A DNA stretch of 64,000 nt, taken from positions 1-64,000 of the forward strand of contig DATJQV010000004.1 in assembly GCA_035505375.1 (NCBI GenBank), read 5' to 3'. The translations under genes were made by a program, and so were the position numbers. The notes under the pieces are model-generated. The model did no database searches. It was not told the origin of the DNA and saw nothing but the letters and a program-made list of their open reading frames with translations. This document shows positions 5,001 to 57,578 of this stretch, piece by piece. Every line of letters starts with the position of its first letter. Position 1 is the first letter of the stretch. The stretch comes from a bacterium (GTDB lineage: Bacteria > Hydrothermota > Tepidihabitantia > Tepidihabitantales > Tepidihabitantaceae).

Positions 5001-6437
5001 TCAGTCTGGCGATTCGCCCGACCGGGCCAGCGTGTCGGCCAGCTTCCCGGCATCCTCAGGCGTCAACCCGGCATCAACGCATCCAGCCACAAACATCTCT
5101 CGGCCCATCTGCTCCAGCAGCGGTTCAAGGTTCCCCATGGTTTGCTCTACACGAAGTCGTGCACCGATGGCTGAGAACACCAACAGAGCTTCAGCAAGAT
5201 ACTTCAGCGCCTTGTCGGGTTCGCCCTTGTCGTCGTAGATGATCCCGATATTGCCAAGTTGGATAGCCACGCCCTGCTGATACCAGATTTCGCGGTCAAT
5301 CGCCAACGCTTCCTCTAAGTACTTCAGCGCCTTGTCGAGTTCGCCCTTGCCGCGGTAGAAGAGCCCGATGTTGCCGAGTTGGGTAGCCACGCCCTGCTGA
5401 TACCCGATTTCGCGGTGAATCGCCAACGCCTCCTCGTGGTACTTCAGCGCCTTGTCGGGTTCGCCCTTGTCGCTGTAGATGAGCCCGATGTTGCCGAGGT
5501 GGATAGCCACGCCGTGCTGATACCCGATTTCACGGTCAATCGCCAACGCTTCCTCTAAGTACTTCAGCGCCTTGTCGGGTTCGCCCTTGCCGCGGTAGAA
5601 GAGCCCGATGTTGCCGAGGTGGTTCGACACGCCCCGCTGATACCCGATTTCGCGGTCAATCGCCAACGCCTCCTCGTGGTACTTCAGCGCCTTGTCGGGT
5701 TCGCCCTTGTCGCGGTAGATGATCCCGATGCTGCCGAGGTCGCTCGCCACGCCATGCTGATGCCCAATCTCGCGGTCTATGGCCAACGCTTCTTCCAAAT
5801 ACTTCAACGCCTTGTCGGGTTTGCCCTTGTCGCGGTAGATGAGCCCGATGTTGCAGAGTTGGACCGCCACGCCCCGCTGATACCCGGTTTCGCGGTGAAT
5901 CGCCAACGCCTCCTCGTGGTACTTCAGCGCCTTGTCGGGTTCGCCCTTGTCGCCGTAGATGATCCCGATGTCTCCGAGGGCCGCGGCCTCGCCCTGCTTT
6001 TCGCCAAAGTCCACGGCCAGCCTGCGCGACTCTTCGTAGGCCTGAAGCGCATCGTTCCACCGCCCCGGCGTGTCATGACATAGGCCGATGAGGTTGTAGA
6101 GCGCGACCAGTTGTGTCCCGGATGCGGACTTGATGGCCTCCCGGAAGTGCATGATTGCTTCGTCCCACTTGCAGACCTCCATCGCTGCACAGCCCAGGTC
6201 GTAGCTTGACCTGACCGGCCCGGACGACTTCGGCAGCCCGTCGAGGTACAGAGCCATCCTGTCCACATTACGCCGCATGCCGTCGAGTATGGTCTCGACA
6301 GTCTTCGCATGCCGTCTGCTTGGTCCTAGCTCATACACGATTGTGGTTACGATAGCTGTAATAACGATTCCTACTGCGGCGGGTACGACTGCCCAGAAGA
6401 CAAGAGGGTCGAAGTAGTGCCCGAGGAAATGCACCAT
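5001..6437 (-). CDS. Membrane-anchored tetratricopeptide repeat protein (478 aa)
   Basis: One N-terminal membrane segment (about residues 13-36, VVPAAVGIVITAIVTTIV) is followed by a linker, two divergent TPRs (about 80-150) and a block of seven 40-residue units (about 155-435), each containing GDKGEPDKALKYxEEALAI. Units of exactly 40 residues are typical of the TPR_12 or kinesin-light-chain type, which bind peptides in a superhelical groove. At DNA level the repeats are exact 120-bp units. KYHEEAL and KYLEEAL alternate, so the true unit of expansion seems to be 240 bp. The orientation places the TPR domain on one face of the membrane; partner unknown. ATG 6437 lacks a Shine-Dalgarno. Confidence 0.88.
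   Translation of the reverse strand: MVHFLGHYFDPLVFWAVVPAAVGIVITAIVTTIVYELGPSRRHAKTVETILDGMRRNVDRMALYLDGLPKSSGPVRSSYDLGCAAMEVCKWDEAIMHFREAIKSASGTQLVALYNLIGLCHDTPGRWNDALQAYEESRRLAVDFGEKQGEAAALGDIGIIYGDKGEPDKALKYHEEALAIHRETGYQRGVAVQLCNIGLIYRDKGKPDKALKYLEEALAIDREIGHQHGVASDLGSIGIIYRDKGEPDKALKYHEEALAIDREIGYQRGVSNHLGNIGLFYRGKGEPDKALKYLEEALAIDREIGYQHGVAIHLGNIGLIYSDKGEPDKALKYHEEALAIHREIGYQQGVATQLGNIGLFYRGKGELDKALKYLEEALAIDREIWYQQGVAIQLGNIGIIYDDKGEPDKALKYLAEALLVFSAIGARLRVEQTMGNLEPLLEQMGREMFVAGCVDAGLTPEDAGKLADTLARSGESPD
5161..5985. repeat. 120-bp tandem repeats within the TPR gene, with 240-bp super-period
   Basis: Seven copies in exact 120-bp register (phase seen at 5221, 5341, 5461, 5581, 5701, 5821, 5941). 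Copies with TCCTCGTGGT at 5431, 5671 and 5911 alternate with copies carrying TCCTCTAAGT or TCTTCCAAAT at 5311, 5551 and 5791. Recombination between copies would change repeat number without shifting frame. Confidence 0.93.
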
Positions 6438-25867: not shown

Positions 25868-26418
25868 TGGCTGAGGACATTCACCACGTCATAACCGGCA
25901 CAATCTGGCCGAAGCTCAAGGACGACGTGCGCGACTTCCGCGTCTTCAGCCGCCACGACCTCGCCTGCGCCGCCTACTTCCACATCCGCCGGTTACTGCT
26001 CGTTCAGCCTGGCTGGTCCTGTCGTGCCACCCCTCCACTCAGCGCGAATGAGAGACGTCCGCCGCTGCCATGCCCTGATCTCGCCCTGTTCTCAGACCGG
26101 AAGCTGATGGCGCTGTTCCGATTCGAGTTCCACCTCACCCCGGGCATGGATGGGGGATTCCCGACATCGGTAATGAATGAGAGGATGACAGCTCTGCGTA
26201 AGACCGTTGAGAACACCGGACATTCGCCGCCGGACGCGAGCAGCGGCAAAGGCTACATGGTCGCCGTCCACGACACCAAGGAAGAATGGTTCTATCCTGA
26301 CCAGGCGGCATGGGAAAAGCAGTCGTGTTTCTGGCTGCCGGTCAATTCCCGAGGATTCGGCAACTACGCCGAGTGGCACCAGAAGTGGGAGAGGCTTGCC
26401 CGGCTCTCGAGTCGCTAG
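25867..26418 (+). CDS. Hypothetical protein (183 aa)
   Basis: It starts at ATG 25867, overlapping the upstream TGA by one base. An acidic N-terminus (MAEDIHHVITGTIWPKLKDD) leads into FRVFSRHDLACAAYFHIRRL, and there is a segment KLMALFRFEFHLTPGMDGGF. The WFYPDQAAWEKQSCFWLPV end contains several aromatics. No signal peptide or membrane span. I do not recognise the family; position in a coupled gene run suggests a shared role with 24230-25867. Confidence 0.7.
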   Translation: MAEDIHHVITGTIWPKLKDDVRDFRVFSRHDLACAAYFHIRRLLLVQPGWSCRATPPLSANERRPPLPCPDLALFSDRKLMALFRFEFHLTPGMDGGFPTSVMNERMTALRKTVENTGHSPPDASSGKGYMVAVHDTKEEWFYPDQAAWEKQSCFWLPVNSRGFGNYAEWHQKWERLARLSSR

Positions 26419-28189
26419 ACATCCGACTCTGCCAATCGTAGCGCGGCCCGGACCCGCAGCGGTCTTTTCCCTGCTGCTTGCTGCCTGTTGGACCATCGGC
26501 CTCGCGGGTATCCCGATCATGACCGTGGATCAGCTCAAGCCTGGCATGAAGGGCACCGGCCGTTCGGTCTTCTTCGGCACCGAAGTCAAGGAGTTCGGCG
26601 TCGAGGTAGTCGATGTCATGCACAAGGCCTGGCCGCGGGGCGACTTGATAATCTGCCGGCTATCCGGGCAGGGACTTGAAGAATCGGGAGTCGTCGCCGG
26701 CATGTCAGGCAGCCCGGTCTACATTGAAGGCAAGCTCATCGGAGCTGTCGCCTACGCGTGGGGCTTCGCCAAAGAGCCGCTCGCCGGGGTCACGCCGGCG
26801 GCCCAGATGCTGCGAATCTGGAATGAGCCTGACCGGTCAGGAGGCCAGGGTGGCTCACGCTCCGGTCGCCTGTCTGAAGGCATCGCGCCGACCGGTCTCT
26901 CGCCCCTCCCGCTGCCCGTAGCTCTGTCCGGATTCACGCCCGCACTGGCCGAACTCATCCAGCCAGCTTTCAGCAAGTTCGGCCTGACGCCGGTCGCCGC
27001 TGCCGGTGCTGCCTCGACTGGTGCTGCTGACACGTCCGGCCTGGTCCCGGGTGCGGCCGTCGGCATCGCCCTGATTGATGGAGATGTGCGTGTCGCCGCA
27101 ATGGGAACTCTCACCTGTCGCGAAGGTAAGCGAATCATCGCGTTCGGACACCCGATGCTGGGGGCCGGCAACATCCGTATGCCGATGGTCGGCGGCGTCA
27201 TTCATTCGGTCGTACCATCGGAAATGAGCTCGTTCAAGCTCTTCTCCCCCACCGCTCCGCTCGGCACCATTAACCAGGACCGGTTGGCCGGGATTGGCGG
27301 CAACATCGGTGCGGCTCCTGAGATGCTGCCGGTCACAGCCGTCATTTCCTCGCCTTCCGGCCTTGACACGTACAGATTTCGCATCGTCGAGCTTGAGGAC
27401 CTCGCCCCAACGCTCGCGGCAGCCGGGCTGACCGATGTGGTCTACCAGACCGAGGGAAACCTCGAGGAAATGACGCTGGCTTCACGGATGACGGTACGCC
27501 TGTCGCCTGCCGCCAATCGTCAATCGCAAATCCCCGCCGACTCGCTTGTCGTCGAGCACCGTTTCAGCGGCACGAACCCGGCCGAAGAGCTCTTCCGAAC
27601 TGCCCAAAGCGAACTCGGAGCCCTGTACAGCAACCGGTTTCTGCCGGCGCCGGTCGCATCGGTCGGATTCGACCTCCGCTTCACTCCGGGCCGGAACCTC
27701 GCGTACCTGCTCTCGGCTCGACCGGACCGGGTGCGCGTGCGCCCCGGCGATTCGGTCAACGTCACGCTGGGGCTGCGCGACTACCGCGGCAGCAATACCG
27801 AGGTAACCGTTGCCATCGGCGTGCCCGAACCCACGCCCGAGGGGAAGTTGAGAATCATCATCGCCCCTCGTGACTCGCTGTTTGCCTTTGAAGCCATGCG
27901 CGCCCCGGCAACGCTTGAACCTGGGTCTTTCGCCCGCCTTGTCGAATTGCTCTCGCAGACCGGCCGGGAAAACGAGCTGGTGGCGGCAGGCTTCATCACC
28001 GGACCGGGCCTGACACTAGCCGGAGAGGAGTTTCCCACGCCTCCGCCTTCACTGCGATCGGTACTGCTCAACCGCCAGGCCGACGAGCCGGTCACGGCGA
28101 CAAACGACAGTCCGGTAATCCGTCAGACGCTCCGCTTGGACCGCGTCATCTCCGGAGTGGTCAAGCTCGACCTGGAGGTCAAAAGGTGA
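26396..28189 (+). CDS. SpoIVB-type S55 serine peptidase, secreted (about 597 aa)
   Basis: Signature segments are IMTVDQLKPGMKGTGRSVFF, EFGVEVVDVM and GLEESGVVAGMSGSPVYIEG (Ser of GMSGSP is the nucleophile), then KRIIAFGHPMLGAGN. In Bacillus, SpoIVB is a sporulation signalling protease; outside Firmicutes such proteins are envelope proteases of unknown substrate. The hydrophobic stretch AAVFSLLLAACWTIGLAG just before this domain looks like a signal peptide, so translation must begin upstream of ATG 26519; TTG 26396 is the best candidate and overlaps the preceding gene by 23 bases. AANRQSQIP (near 375) is encoded by a heptamer array. Confidence 0.78.
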   Translation: MPGSRVARHPTLPIVARPGPAAVFSLLLAACWTIGLAGIPIMTVDQLKPGMKGTGRSVFFGTEVKEFGVEVVDVMHKAWPRGDLIICRLSGQGLEESGVVAGMSGSPVYIEGKLIGAVAYAWGFAKEPLAGVTPAAQMLRIWNEPDRSGGQGGSRSGRLSEGIAPTGLSPLPLPVALSGFTPALAELIQPAFSKFGLTPVAAAGAASTGAADTSGLVPGAAVGIALIDGDVRVAAMGTLTCREGKRIIAFGHPMLGAGNIRMPMVGGVIHSVVPSEMSSFKLFSPTAPLGTINQDRLAGIGGNIGAAPEMLPVTAVISSPSGLDTYRFRIVELEDLAPTLAAAGLTDVVYQTEGNLEEMTLASRMTVRLSPAANRQSQIPADSLVVEHRFSGTNPAEELFRTAQSELGALYSNRFLPAPVASVGFDLRFTPGRNLAYLLSARPDRVRVRPGDSVNVTLGLRDYRGSNTEVTVAIGVPEPTPEGKLRIIIAPRDSLFAFEAMRAPATLEPGSFARLVELLSQTGRENELVAAGFITGPGLTLAGEEFPTPPPSLRSVLLNRQADEPVTATNDSPVIRQTLRLDRVISGVVKLDLEVKR

Positions 28190-30318
28190 GAACACAAGTA
28201 CAAAGTCGCAAGGACAAAGGACAAGACAAGCTCCAAACGAAGCCGGGAAGGGTTCAGTTTCATCTCTCATCCTTCATCCTTTCCCCTTGCTTAGTCCTTT
28301 GTACTTTATCCTTTACACTTGCGTCGGTTTGGACCACTGACGGCACCGACAGCCTGCTTCAGCAACTCGACCGCATCGAATTCGAGAACGTGTCGATTCA
28401 CAGCCAGGGAACGGTGACGCTGGCACCAGCCCTGGCCAACCGGACGCTCGACAACGCGGCTGCGGTCTGGCAGACGGCCGCTGACCGCCGCGGGAATGTC
28501 TACGTGGCGACCGGCAACCAGGGACGCCTCTACCGCCTGCGTTCACCGTCCATCGTTAGTCGTTCATCGTTGCCCGAACTGGTGTACGATTCCGCGTCCG
28601 GAGAGATACTTGCCCTGACTTCAGACGCGTCCGGCACGGTCTACTTCGGCACCACGCCGGACGGCAACGTGTATCGTATCCGCCCGGGCGGCAAACCCGA
28701 GCATCTCTGTTCCACCGGTGAGAGCTATGTCTATTGCCTGCTGCCTGCGGGCGACCCCTCTGGATCAGTCTTCGCCGCTACCGGCCAGCACGGCAAGCTC
28801 CTGCGCATCACGCCCGATGGCAAGGCAACCGAGGTCTTTACAGCCAAACAAGGCAGTCTGACCGCATTGGCCTGGCTGATTCCCGGCAAGGAAATGCTGG
28901 TCGGGACTTCCCCTGACGGCACAGTCTACCGTCTCAGCTTCACCGCCGGCGCTGAGCGGCCGAGCGTCTCCGTACTGTACGACACACCGTTGAACGAAGT
29001 ACGGGCAATTGCTGCGGACGCAGCCGGCCGGGTCTACATCGGCGCGAACGCAGGGGGTGACGCAGACGCGGATTCAGCCCGTGCCGAAGTCTTCTTCATC
29101 GACAGGTTCGGCGTTCGCCGATGGTGCTGGCGCGCGCCCGATTCCACGGTGTTCGCCATCGCCCCCCTCTCGTCCTCAGGCGTGCTCGTGGCAACCGGCA
29201 ACAAGGCCATGGTCTACGAACTCGACACGCTCGGCCATGTCTCGGTCCGGTACCGGATGAAAGAAACTCAGGCGCTCTGCCTGTCTCCGGTGCCAGGCGG
29301 ACTATGGCTCGGAACCGGCAACCCGGGCAAGCTCTATGAGGCGGGCGCGGCTTACGCCGACTCGGGCCACCTCACTTCTGCACCGCACGACTGCGCCAAC
29401 CCGGCGCTGTTCGGCACGCTCTCCTTCCGCGCGAACGTCCCGGCCGGAACCGGGCTGACCTTCGAAACTCGGTCAGGTAACTCCGAGAAACCGGACTCGA
29501 CATGGAGCCAATGGACAGCGGCAGACCCTGGGATAAAGTCTCCGTCGCGTCGCTTCATTCAGTGGCGGAGCCGTTTCCGCACATCCTTCCCCAATCTCAC
29601 CCCCGAACTGCAGCGCGTGGATGTCTACTACCGCCCTGCCAACCTTGCGCCGGTCATCAAGAAGTTTGACGTTCCCGAGCCGTCACTGGAAGACGCGCGA
29701 AAGGGCTTGAACAAGCCGTCACGCCAAATCACATGGGAAGCTACCGACCCGGATTCCGACTCGCTCTCGTTCGAGCTCTGCTTCCGGCGAGAGCACGAAA
29801 CACAGTGGCAGCGGGTGGAGCATGACATTTCCGACAGCCGCTTCGACCTCGACACCCGGGCCCTGCCTGATGGCTGGTACGAACTCAAGCTCGTGGCCAG
29901 CGACAAGCCGACCGAACCAGCGGGCGCGGCCCTCACGACTGAGTACGTGAGTCGGCCCTTCCTTGTCGACAACACCGCTCCGACCGTGACCGGGCTGAGC
30001 ACCCAAGTCCTCTCTGCCGGCGACTCGTCAATCGCCAATCGCCAATCGCCAATCGCCAATTACAGACTCTGCCGCGTCAGCTTCTCCGCCCACGATTCCC
30101 TGTCCACGATTGCCGCGGCCCGGGTTTCGGTCAACGCCGGTGACTGGATAACGCTCGAGCCTGAGGACCACGTCTTCGACTCCGGCACAGAACGCTTCAA
30201 CGCCGACGTCTCTCTTCCGTCCTCCGTCATTGGTCTTCCGTCCTTTGTCGTAAGCGTCTGGGTTGCCGATGCCCAGCGAAACGTCGCCGCGGCACGCACG
30301 ATTGTGCGCGCCAAGTAA
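28186..30318 (+). CDS. Secreted beta-propeller protein with Ig-like domains (710 aa)
   Basis: GTG 28186 overlaps the previous stop by 4 bases. After the signal peptide, residues 60-400 are propeller blades (GNVYVATGNQGRLYRLR, GTVYFGTTPDGNVYRIR, VFAATGQHGKLLRITPDG), and residues 420-710 include Ig/Fn3-like domains (ITWEATDPDSDSLSFEL, WYELKLVASDKP). No sorting domain is present at the C-terminus. The first 47 residues, a basic region and hydrophobic core (SPCLVLCTLSFTLAS), are encoded by both arms of an AAGGACA-type inverted repeat. Two more repeat arrays run through 30028-30063 (IANRQSP units) and 30217-30253. Confidence 0.85.
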   Translation: MRTQVQSRKDKGQDKLQTKPGRVQFHLSSFILSPCLVLCTLSFTLASVWTTDGTDSLLQQLDRIEFENVSIHSQGTVTLAPALANRTLDNAAAVWQTAADRRGNVYVATGNQGRLYRLRSPSIVSRSSLPELVYDSASGEILALTSDASGTVYFGTTPDGNVYRIRPGGKPEHLCSTGESYVYCLLPAGDPSGSVFAATGQHGKLLRITPDGKATEVFTAKQGSLTALAWLIPGKEMLVGTSPDGTVYRLSFTAGAERPSVSVLYDTPLNEVRAIAADAAGRVYIGANAGGDADADSARAEVFFIDRFGVRRWCWRAPDSTVFAIAPLSSSGVLVATGNKAMVYELDTLGHVSVRYRMKETQALCLSPVPGGLWLGTGNPGKLYEAGAAYADSGHLTSAPHDCANPALFGTLSFRANVPAGTGLTFETRSGNSEKPDSTWSQWTAADPGIKSPSRRFIQWRSRFRTSFPNLTPELQRVDVYYRPANLAPVIKKFDVPEPSLEDARKGLNKPSRQITWEATDPDSDSLSFELCFRREHETQWQRVEHDISDSRFDLDTRALPDGWYELKLVASDKPTEPAGAALTTEYVSRPFLVDNTAPTVTGLSTQVLSAGDSSIANRQSPIANYRLCRVSFSAHDSLSTIAAARVSVNAGDWITLEPEDHVFDSGTERFNADVSLPSSVIGLPSFVVSVWVADAQRNVAAARTIVRAK
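28190..28326. repeat. AAGGACA inverted repeat that forms the 5-prime coding end
   Basis: The left arm (28192-28230) has units AAGTACA, AAGTCGC, AAGGACA, AAGGACA; the right arm (28264-28322) has CCTTCAT, CCTTTCC, CCTTGCT, TAGTCCT, TTGTACT, TTATCCT. Both are translated. Confidence 0.85.
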
Positions 30319-30321
30319 TCG

Positions 30322-30448
30322 CGCACAAGGACCAAGTAGTAAGGACAAAGGACTAATCAAAGCGGCAAGTCACAAGACGAACCCCGACTTCGTACTTTGT
30401 CATTCTCTGCGTTGCTTTGTCCTTAGTCCTTTGTCCTTGATACTTGCG
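30322..30448. repeat. AAGGACA inverted repeat between a stop and the archease start
   Basis: The left arm has AAGGACC, AAGTAGT, AAGGACA, AAGGACT; the right has CTTTGTC, CTTAGTC, CTTTGTC, CTTGATA, around a GC-rich loop. The element fills the whole gap: it begins 6 bases after one stop and ends 3 bases before the ATG at 30451. Confidence 0.88.
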
Positions 30449-30450
30449 CC

Positions 30451-32938: not shown

Positions 32939-34606
32939 ATGCAGCGTCTTGTGACCGCAGCCCAGATGCAGGACCTCGACCGTCGCGCGACCGCGGAGCA
33001 CGGCATCCCGGGCTTGACGCTGATGGAGAACGCCGGTCAGGCCGTAATCAAGTTCATGGAAAAACACCTTGGCAGCCTCGCCGGCACTCAGCCGCTCGTC
33101 GTCTGCGGCAAGGGCAACAACGGTGGTGACGGCTTCGTGGTCACTCGGCTGCTGCTCGACAATGGCGCGAAGCCCGATTGCGTCCTTTTGGGAAGCTCAG
33201 CCGACCTCGCGGGTGATGCCCTCGCCAACTGCAACCGACTCAAGGACGGCGGTCTCTCGGTCCGCGAAGTTTCGAAGGCCGCAGACGTCGCACCGCTTCT
33301 CCAAGACAGGAAGGTAATCATCGATGCGATCTTCGGCACAGGCCTGACCCGCAGGCCTGCCGGGCTCGCCGCCCAGGCCATTACGCTCATCAACCAGTCC
33401 GGCGCATACGTGGTGGCCATCGACCTGCCCTCCGGGCTTCAATCCGACACCGGCGTGCCGTACGAACCGTGCGTCCGCGCCGACCTGACCGTGACCATGG
33501 CCATGCCGAAGGTCGGCCTCTGGCTCTACCCTGGCCGTGTCTGCGTGGGCACCGCAGAAATCGGCGACATCGGTATGCCAGAGATAGGAACTAGGGACGA
33601 GGGACTAGGGACGAGGGCTCGGACCCTAATCCCCAATCCCCAGCCCCTAATCCCTGGTGATCAGGCCTTCCTGCTCGATGCCGAACACGTCCGCTCGATT
33701 CTGCCCGGGCGCAGACCCGATGGCCACAAGGGAACATTCGGCACCACGCTCATCATCGCCGGGTCGCGGAATTTCTCCGGCGCGGCCGTCCTCGCCGGTT
33801 CGGCTGCGGTCCGTTCCGGGTGCGGTCTGATACGGATCGCCATTCCTGCCGGCATCGCCGATGTCGTGTCATCCGACGTAGTCGAGGCGGTGAAAATCCC
33901 GCTGCCGCAGACGGATACCGAGACACTGTCCCCGGCCGCCACCGAGAGCCTGCTTGAACTGGCCGGCGACGCTCAGGCAGTCGCGCTCGGCCCCGGCATC
34001 GGCACCGACCCCCGCACGCGAGAACTCGAGCTCGACTTCCTCGCCGAGGTCGAACGGCCGACCGTGATTGACGCGGACGGCATCAACAACCTCGCCGGTC
34101 GCATCGACCTGCTCTCGCGCGTCAAGGCTCCACTCGTGCTTACGCCTCACCCGGGCGAGTTCGCACGCCTGACCGGGCTGAAGGCGGGTGACGTCAACGC
34201 CGACCGCGTCGGCATCTCGCGTAAATTCGCGACTGAGCGTAAGGTGGTGCTCGTGCTCAAAGGCGCCTCGACCGTGGTCGCCGCTCCGGACGGCACCATC
34301 TTCGTCAACCCGACCGGCAATTCAGGCCTGGCCAAGGGCGGAACCGGCGACGTCCTCACCGGTCTGATCGCTGGCCTGATCGCTCAGGGCATGTCGCCGC
34401 TGGACGGCGCTTGTGCGGGCGTGTTCCTCCACGGTCTCGCCGCCGACATTGCCGTGCGGACGTTCACCGAGTATTGCCTCGCCGCCGGTGACCTGCCCCA
34501 CTTCCTGCCGCAGGCGTTCGCGGCAGTGCTCAATGGAGATGCCCAGGCTTCGATGCGTCGGAATGACCAATTGTCAAGTGCCAATTCCCAATCAAACCCC
34601 AGGTAA
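32939..34606 (+). CDS. nnrD: Bifunctional NAD(P)H-hydrate epimerase/dehydratase (555 aa)
   Basis: Repairs hydrated NADH and NADPH. Residues 1-215 are the epimerase (NnrE): TAAQMQDLDRRATAEHGIPG, CGKGNNGGDGFVV, DAIFGTGLTRRP, VAIDLPSGLQSDTG. Residues 245-545 are the ATP/ADP-dependent dehydratase: GHKGTFGTTLIIAGSRNFSG, GPGIGTD, LTPHPGEFARLTG and NSGLAKGGTGDVLTGLIAG. The two-domain fusion is standard. Odd are the linker (about residues 217-241, GTRDEGLGTRARTLIPNPQP...), encoded by a GGGACTA/CCCCAAT heptamer array, and the final 15 residues (RNDQLSSANSQSNPR), encoded by ATGACCA heptamers. Confidence 0.93.
   Translation: MQRLVTAAQMQDLDRRATAEHGIPGLTLMENAGQAVIKFMEKHLGSLAGTQPLVVCGKGNNGGDGFVVTRLLLDNGAKPDCVLLGSSADLAGDALANCNRLKDGGLSVREVSKAADVAPLLQDRKVIIDAIFGTGLTRRPAGLAAQAITLINQSGAYVVAIDLPSGLQSDTGVPYEPCVRADLTVTMAMPKVGLWLYPGRVCVGTAEIGDIGMPEIGTRDEGLGTRARTLIPNPQPLIPGDQAFLLDAEHVRSILPGRRPDGHKGTFGTTLIIAGSRNFSGAAVLAGSAAVRSGCGLIRIAIPAGIADVVSSDVVEAVKIPLPQTDTETLSPAATESLLELAGDAQAVALGPGIGTDPRTRELELDFLAEVERPTVIDADGINNLAGRIDLLSRVKAPLVLTPHPGEFARLTGLKAGDVNADRVGISRKFATERKVVLVLKGASTVVAAPDGTIFVNPTGNSGLAKGGTGDVLTGLIAGLIAQGMSPLDGACAGVFLHGLAADIAVRTFTEYCLAAGDLPHFLPQAFAAVLNGDAQASMRRNDQLSSANSQSNPR
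33587..33660. repeat. In-frame GGGACTA/CCCCAAT heptamer array inside nnrE-nnrD
   Basis: Units GGAACTA, GGGACGA, GGGACTA, GGGACGA, then CCCTAAT, CCCCAAT, CCCCAGC, CCCTAAT, CCCTGGT: two complementary-type arms in 7-bp register, read straight through. Confidence 0.9.
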
Positions 34607-34678
34607 GGAAATGACCAATCGGGCATTCGGCATTCCGGCATTGATTGGTCATTGGGACTTGGTCATTGGGGTTTGTGG
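34562..34678. repeat. ATGACCA heptamers at the nnrD end and before the next gene
   Basis: Units ATGACCA, ATTGTCA, AGTGCCA, ATTCCCA carry the last codons of nnrD; GGCATTC, CATTGGG and TTGGTCA units continue to 34670, 15 bases before the following start. Confidence 0.8.
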
Positions 34679-34684
34679 TACCTG

Positions 34685-54914: not shown

Positions 54915-54952
54915 AGTAACTCCTCTGCACTCGACCACTGCGAGGCCGTGAA

Positions 54953-55077
54953 GTAGTAAGGACAAAGGACTAAGGACAAAGCAAGACGAAAAGGACAAAG
55001 TAACAAGTACGGACCGGACCGGGGCTTCTCACTTGTCACTTGCTTTGTCCTTACCACTTTGTCCTTTGTACTTTCCT
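54953..55077. repeat. AAGGACA inverted repeat in the operon, copy A
   Basis: Arms of AAGGACA/AAGGACTA and CTTTGTCCTTACCACTTTG type surround GGACCGGACCGGGGCTTCTC. It begins directly at the stop codon of the 93-aa gene. Copy B at 57048-57176 has the same order and a related loop (GGACGCGACTCGGCTTTTC). Confidence 0.88.
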
Positions 55078-57032: not shown

Positions 57033-57047
57033 TCAGAGCCTCCTAGC

Positions 57048-57176
57048 GAGGAAAATCCAAAGTCCAAAGGACAAAGGACAAACCAACGTGGAAAGGACAA
57101 AGTACCAAGTCCGGACGCGACTCGGCTTTTCACTTCGTACTTGCTTTGTCCTTCGTACTTTGTCCTTTGTACTTTT
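57048..57176. repeat. AAGGACA inverted repeat in the operon, copy B
   Basis: Left arm AAAGTCCAAAGGACAAAGG, loop GGACGCGACTCGGCTTTTC, right arm CTTTGTCCTTCGTACTTTG. It abuts the stop codon of the mutase small-subunit gene and ends 15 bases before the CstA start. Confidence 0.88.
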
Positions 57177-57578
57177 CTAGACGCGATCTGGGAACTTCTC
57201 TTTCAGGTAGGTGACGATGTCGGTAGTCGGTGTGCCAGGGCCGAAGAGCCGACCGCAGCCTTGCTTGTACAGCTCCTCCATGTCCTCGCGCGGGATGATT
57301 CCGCCGCCGAACACGAGGATGTCCCCAGCGCCCTTTTCTTTGAGCAGGCGCAACGTCTCGGGGAAGAGCGTCATGTGCGCGCCGGACAGTACTGACAGCC
57401 CAACGACGTCAACGTCCTCCTGCAACGCCGCCTCGGCAATCATCTCCGGGGTCTGGTGCAGCCCGGTGTAAATCACCTCGAACCCGGCGTCACGCAAGGC
57501 GCGGGCAACGACCTTTGCCCCACGGTCATGACCATCCAAGCCGGGCTTCGCAACTAGAACTCGCAACTTCTTACCCAT
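57177..57578 (-). CDS. Methylmalonyl-CoA mutase, cobalamin-binding subunit (133 aa)
   Basis: The B12-binding domain that pairs with the large subunit to interconvert methylmalonyl-CoA and succinyl-CoA. It shows the base-off motif LDGHDRG (D-x-H-x-x-G; His is the lower cobalt ligand), followed by [10 protein letters not shown] and [15 protein letters not shown]. Separate small subunits are usual in archaea and many anaerobes. ATG 57578 is preceded by GGAGG; longer readings start in repeat DNA. In this operon it is separated from the large-subunit gene by a 500-bp cassette. Confidence 0.95.

Follow-up and report, generated by a model that had tools for sequence, protein, structure and literature searches.

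The enterobacterial MITEs RU-2/YPAL and RU-1f (ERIC) are small, dispersed intergenic palindromes whose translation is found fused in frame to genes (Delihas 2007; PMC2759123, PMC2229807). RU-2 accounts for residues 1-30 of the predicted 41-aa signal peptide of Yersinia YPO1552, and fusions of RU-1f give rise to predicted transmembrane segments (PMC2759123, PMC2229807). Rickettsia palindromic elements (RPEs), which are palindromes of about 105-150 bp, occur in intergenic regions as well as, in frame, within conserved protein-coding genes (Ogata 2000, as relayed in PMC10969869 and PMC2229807), and these two sources describe them as inserts within proteins that are neutral or slightly harmful. 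The TAACTGA repeats of Beggiatoaceae consist of 7-nt units that are mostly intergenic and form direct arrays (PMC4679880).

Here we analysed a window of 64,000 nucleotides from a 3.6-Mb draft genome whose named genus relatives belong to candidate division WOR-3; all genomes compared are draft assemblies. In this window, AAGGACA-type heptamers arranged as an inverted repeat of ~130 bp encode the first 46 residues (138 nt after the start) of a propeller-like protein. Compared at the sequence level, this member of a dispersed family is read in frame in the place where orthologues carry their signal peptides, and the same replacement recurs in other genes. We consider it very probable that the palindrome landed at the start of a gene already coding for an exported protein, where it took over the n- and h-regions of the signal while the c-region of the host gene was kept. 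Export would depend on Sec, and our predictions of export and cleavage draw on hydropathy, charge, the residues at -3 and -1 and orthology. The coordinates of the features are given in Table 1.

Table 1. Features of the propeller locus, further copies of the element in the window, and gene families fused to the element (G000 to G005 are the six genus members).
Feature	Window position or genomes	Strand	Remarks
Upstream gene, SpoIVB-type S55 peptidase domain (PF05580)	26207-28189	+	True start probably downstream of 26207
Shine-Dalgarno region, propeller gene	28168-28185	+	GGAGGT 6 nt before start; within 3' end of upstream S55-peptidase ORF
GTG start codon, propeller gene	28186-28188	+	Overlaps TGA of upstream ORF (GTGA)
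Proposed signal peptide, 46 aa	28186-28323	+	Based on hydropathy and on outgroup signal peptides aligned to it; predicted cleavage after ...TLA, before SVWTT
AAGGACA-heptamer palindromic element (model R1)	28190-28323	+	Covariance model, 92.5 bits, E 4e-18
Purine-rich left arm	28192-28230	+	Codes for basic segment TQVQSRKDKGQDK
Pyrimidine-rich right arm	28286-28324	+	Codes for hydrophobic core PCLVLCTLSFTLA
Mature part, propeller-like protein, predicted secreted (Reg_prop PF07494)	28324-30318	+	
Second element copy, intergenic	30321-30448	+	Ends 2 nt before archease ATG; adjoins cytoplasmic gene, unfused
Weak, diverged element-like match	34559-34680	-	40.7 bits
Element copy, intergenic	54945-55076	+	
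Element copy, essentially intergenic	57047-57177	+	1-nt overlap with called stop
MltG (TIGR00247, YceG), fused	G000, G003, G005		
SurA/PpiC protein, fused	G000, G004, G005, weakly G002		
SprA (TIGR04189), fused	G004, G005		
C45-type hydrolase, fused	G004, G005		
TolB-like propeller, fused	G000		

The propeller ORF runs from the GTG at 28186 to a stop at 30318 (710 aa), and its N-terminus reads VRTQVQSRKDKGQDKLQTKPGRVQFHLSSFILSPCLVLCTLSFTLA followed by SVWTT. The first-pass annotation had the coding sequence begin inside an AAGGACA inverted repeat; the repeat is indeed present, with arms of 39 nt that are 72% complementary and lie 55 nt apart, but the start codon is situated 6 nt upstream of the left arm. 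GGAGGT also precedes the start in the genus orthologues, and the start codon is ATG in the other five members. As had been proposed, the purine-rich arm is translated into a Lys/Arg-rich segment and the complementary arm into a hydrophobic core: the n-region carries a net charge of +5, and the core reaches a KD12 of 2.38, compared to 1.72-2.87 in 16 ordinary outgroup signals. The pyrimidine arm is the sole h-region of this N-terminus. Read by eye, the six genus members have small residues before SVWT, with T, C, S or A at -3 and A or G at -1.

Orthologues of the propeller gene were found in all five other members of the genus and in other genera. In the latter, the position of the gene start is the same and is followed by an ordinary signal peptide of short length, e.g. 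MKSLTFCLLAFVAVASYA before AVWTT, and no unrelated orthologue signal aligns upstream of the element. The six genus members share this start, but 44-53 element-type residues, the last of them A or G and followed by SVWT, stand in place of the signal. At this gene, four members match the element model strongly, G003 matches it moderately and G001 weakly (22.7 bits, E 0.01). At the propeller gene, the alignments indicate that the element replaced an existing signal and did not create export. The earlier proposal that the repeat had become the signal peptide therefore holds, on the aligned sequences, for the n- and h-regions but not for the c-region, which is the host gene's own; export and cleavage are predicted.

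The window contains 26 instances of AAGGACA compared to 5.2 expected, and 0 of 100 shuffles reached the observed count. BLAST with the propeller copy alone returned 63 matches in its own genome, itself counted, and a covariance model built from copies that include 28190-28323 gave 96, 25, 40, 50, 75 and 106 matches in the six genus genomes (both strands counted). The element has a median length of 132 bp and consists of two inverted arms of ~35 nt made of AAGGACA/AAGTACA-type heptamers; across 79 copies, identity was 0.53 at lag 7 and 0.49 at lag 14, compared to 0.21-0.36 at other lags. It shares several traits with MITEs, namely terminal inverted repeats, small size, many dispersed copies that are nearly all intergenic, and a GC content (46.8%, against 62% for the window) that makes it AT-richer than its host. 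The majority of the 79 strong copies are intergenic or extend a few bases into a gene end. Among the 69 copies with both neighbours called, 49 lie between co-directional, 15 between divergent and 5 between convergent genes, and this last figure speaks against a terminator role.

The repeat had also been described as a hairpin, a view that pairing of the arms does not bear out. The element alignment contained no excess of compensatory arm changes (77.1% paired cells, below the shuffle mean), an Rfam search with the element gave no match, and the folding z-score was modest (-2.3), all of which argues against a hairpin or structured-RNA function. The spacer between the propeller and archease genes (30319-30450 and the orthologous spacers L012-L016) carries the AAGGACA element in G000, G002, G003 and G005, but in G001 and G004 another heptamer repeat is found there, indicating repeat turnover at one site; for that reason, the spacer was uninformative as an intergenic control for frame keeping. 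Within the propeller ORF, further heptamer repeats at 28546-28577 and 30025-30060 correspond to peptide inserts (SPSIVSRSS and SSIANRQSPIANY) that are RPE-like and are absent or altered in orthologues, and similar IANRQSP-type inserts are found in MltG and TolB-like proteins. Elsewhere in the window, a tandem 120/240-bp repeat (5200-5979, 6.5 copies, 85% match) lies inside a minus-strand coding region.

A perfect AAGGACA array reads KDKGQRT in all frames and its complement reads LCPLSFV. The same peptide arises from every frame of a perfect arm because the period is 7 nt, and the purine arm leads in either orientation because the element is palindromic; with the period and the palindrome combined, frame and orientation matter little for the layout. 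Taking as a signal-peptide layout a basic stretch in an open frame with a hydrophobic core after it, a definition of our own, we found it in 44.8% of the six-way readings of 77 real copies, 99% of which have at least one such reading, compared to 1.5% for dinucleotide shuffles, 1.6% for random window segments and 0% for swapped halves. These values uphold the suggestion that the order of the arms by itself yields an n-region and then an h-region. Since copies unfused to exported genes gave the layout in 44.7% of readings, it is a property of the element and not the outcome of selection on coding copies. In MltG, SurA and SprA, the start codon sits where the left arm meets the loop, in most cases preceded by an AAGGA-like sequence. 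Such a junction start occurred in 29 of 133 readings examined, and the start and SD-like AAGGA that come with the element are an occasional bonus, not the rule.

A set of 165 elements was searched for reading frames that begin within the element and continue into a gene, with starts taken from a simple gene caller of our own. Besides the propeller, at least five families draw their start, n-region and h-region from the element: MltG, SurA, SprA, C45 hydrolase and TolB-like propeller, named by Pfam/NCBIfam or homology, the C45 and TolB matches being below curated cut-offs. In the outgroup genera, orthologues of the five families carry ordinary or lipoprotein signals at the place of the element, and ordinary signals devoid of the element also occur inside the genus, in SprA of G001-G003 and SurA of G001 and G003. 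The c-region of the host is retained behind the element, as AAFAA in SurA, FA before CTIG in C45 and a conserved lipobox-like Cys in MltG. Altogether 19 copies are fused in frame to protein genes, as known for RPEs, and six families were checked against orthologues; all these fusions are N-terminal, unlike the insertions of RPEs inside proteins. The 19 N-termini have a KD12 of 1.50-3.02 and a net charge before the h-region of 0 to +7, and their open frame is partly a matter of ascertainment, the +1 frame being closed in 17 of 19 and the +2 frame in 9 of 19. Because different genes are affected, the fusions must have arisen at least six times separately; the concatenated tree of the genus is ((G004,G005),(G001,(G002,G003)),G000). 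Further fused candidates (three TPR or TPR-like proteins, one coiled-coil and one beta-propeller protein) lie outside the orthologue-checked set on which the count of six families rests.

Where the gene next to an element codes for a cytoplasmic or polytopic protein (Thy1, MurJ, RodA, Era, SurE, ParB, an epimerase, dCMP deaminase and, in the window, archease), it carries its own start codon behind the element. A Fisher-type value for the association of fusion with export was not used as evidence because the comparison set was hand-picked. EndoIII beside G000:C49 was rejected as a fusion on account of an in-frame stop within the element. The first-pass annotation had supposed that the family could seed secretion signals wherever it lands at a gene start. 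Recurrence in several exported families and the identical layout of unfused copies agree with this, but the comparisons reveal replacement of signals, and no case of a cytoplasmic protein newly gaining secretion was found among the scanned elements.

Several other repeats and genes of this lineage were observed along the way. A C45 hydrolase gene in another genus of the family (G015, L275:1362-1486) has at its start a related palindrome of AAAGTCC-type units (34.8 bits), which is likewise translated into basic and then hydrophobic residues. MltG of G002 and G004 and the TolB-like protein of G001, G003 and G005 (L226-L228, L284-L287) seem to use other short repeats (RHQDTK..., EIKGSRDR...) as export signals. 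SprA (TIGR04189), the outer-membrane translocon of type IX secretion, is present in this WOR-3 family (L123, L257-L272); our literature search, which covered few subscription journals, found no paper naming both WOR-3 and type IX secretion.

The element could instead be a neutral, RPE-like insertion, a tolerated N-terminal extension behind which a residual native signal still directs export. A second hydrophobic stretch past the element in the TPR protein of G000:C73, in G005:C530 and in G004:C432 fits such a reading, as do the other heptamer repeats that form peptide inserts in the same proteins. Nevertheless, the right arm is the only h-region in the propeller, SprA, SurA and C45, where just the c-region follows, and we regard a neutral insertion as unlikely. 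Still less probable is that the element forms a 5' untranslated repeat with translation beginning downstream and the open frame accidental. Most copies are intergenic, and open frames come cheap in heptamer arms free of stops, but in the window's copy the stretch from the element to the conserved mature propeller is free of ATG and GTG, the first being 22 codons on; GGAGGT and ATG or GTG stand at the same place, directly followed by the element, in the genus orthologues; and the proteins would, minus the element, lose a signal that their orthologues have. That ordinary signal peptides merely resemble the repeat by chance, through T-rich codons in hydrophobic cores, might fit the weakest matches (propeller of G001, SurA of G002) but is scarcely credible given that in strong fused copies the match spans all 129 positions of the element, purine arm and loop included (E 1e-13 to 1e-23), that the layout is rare in shuffles and random segments, and that the outgroup orthologue loci except one C45 locus have no match.

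Replacement of the n- and h-regions of existing signals by the element is the reading we retain. Against it, the fused n-regions are long (25-40 residues), and some copies (propeller of G001, SurA of G002) have diverged to the point of matching the model weakly. A ~130-bp repeat, intergenic by default, would insert at the start of a gene for an exported protein and displace the n- and h-regions, leaving the host c-region in place; the purine arm is read as a stretch rich in Lys and Arg, its complement gives a hydrophobic peptide of the LCPLSFV/LCTLSFV type, and some copies bring an SD-like AAGGA and a start at the arm/loop junction. This bears on the origin of new signal peptides, as members of a single repeat family seem to have taken the place of targeting signals in several conserved exported proteins. 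The reason at the DNA level is simple, a purine-rich arm followed by its complement giving basic and then hydrophobic residues, and the prediction extends to every genome in which palindromes with purine/pyrimidine asymmetry abound. Heptamer palindromes may constitute a standing, lineage-wide supply of export signals, a cassette that in either orientation and several frames would bring an n-region, an h-region and sometimes a ribosome-binding site and start codon. Unrelated heptamer families, several in number, and a neighbouring genus (C45, L275) seem to behave alike, so that signal peptides in this group would turn over by repeat capture; to this proposal as a whole we give even chances.

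Heptanucleotide repeats that are mostly intergenic and form direct arrays are also known in cyanobacteria as STRR; unlike these and the TAACTGA repeats of Beggiatoaceae, the WOR-3 heptamers make up two inverted arms. Work on yeast invertase established that random sequences can act as secretion signals, so that export signals are easily made from unrelated sequence, whereas in WOR-3 a natural repeat appears to supply signals time and again, and the bias has a mechanistic explanation. A literature search covering few subscription journals found no report of a repeat recurrently replacing the signals of conserved exported proteins. RPEs provide a peptide insert within a protein, whereas the WOR-3 element is predicted to supply the N-terminal export signal itself. 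The closest precedent is RU-2 in Yersinia YPO1552. However, RU-2 and RU-1f fusions mostly concern small putative proteins and single cases, and in WOR-3 the fusions are recurrent and affect conserved exported proteins, the relatives of which have retained ordinary signals, with a layout that stems from arm asymmetry and the 7-nt period. The WOR-3 case is akin to the RU-2 and RPE fusions and differs from them by the repeated replacement of the signals of conserved exported proteins and by a design for which frame and orientation are largely immaterial.
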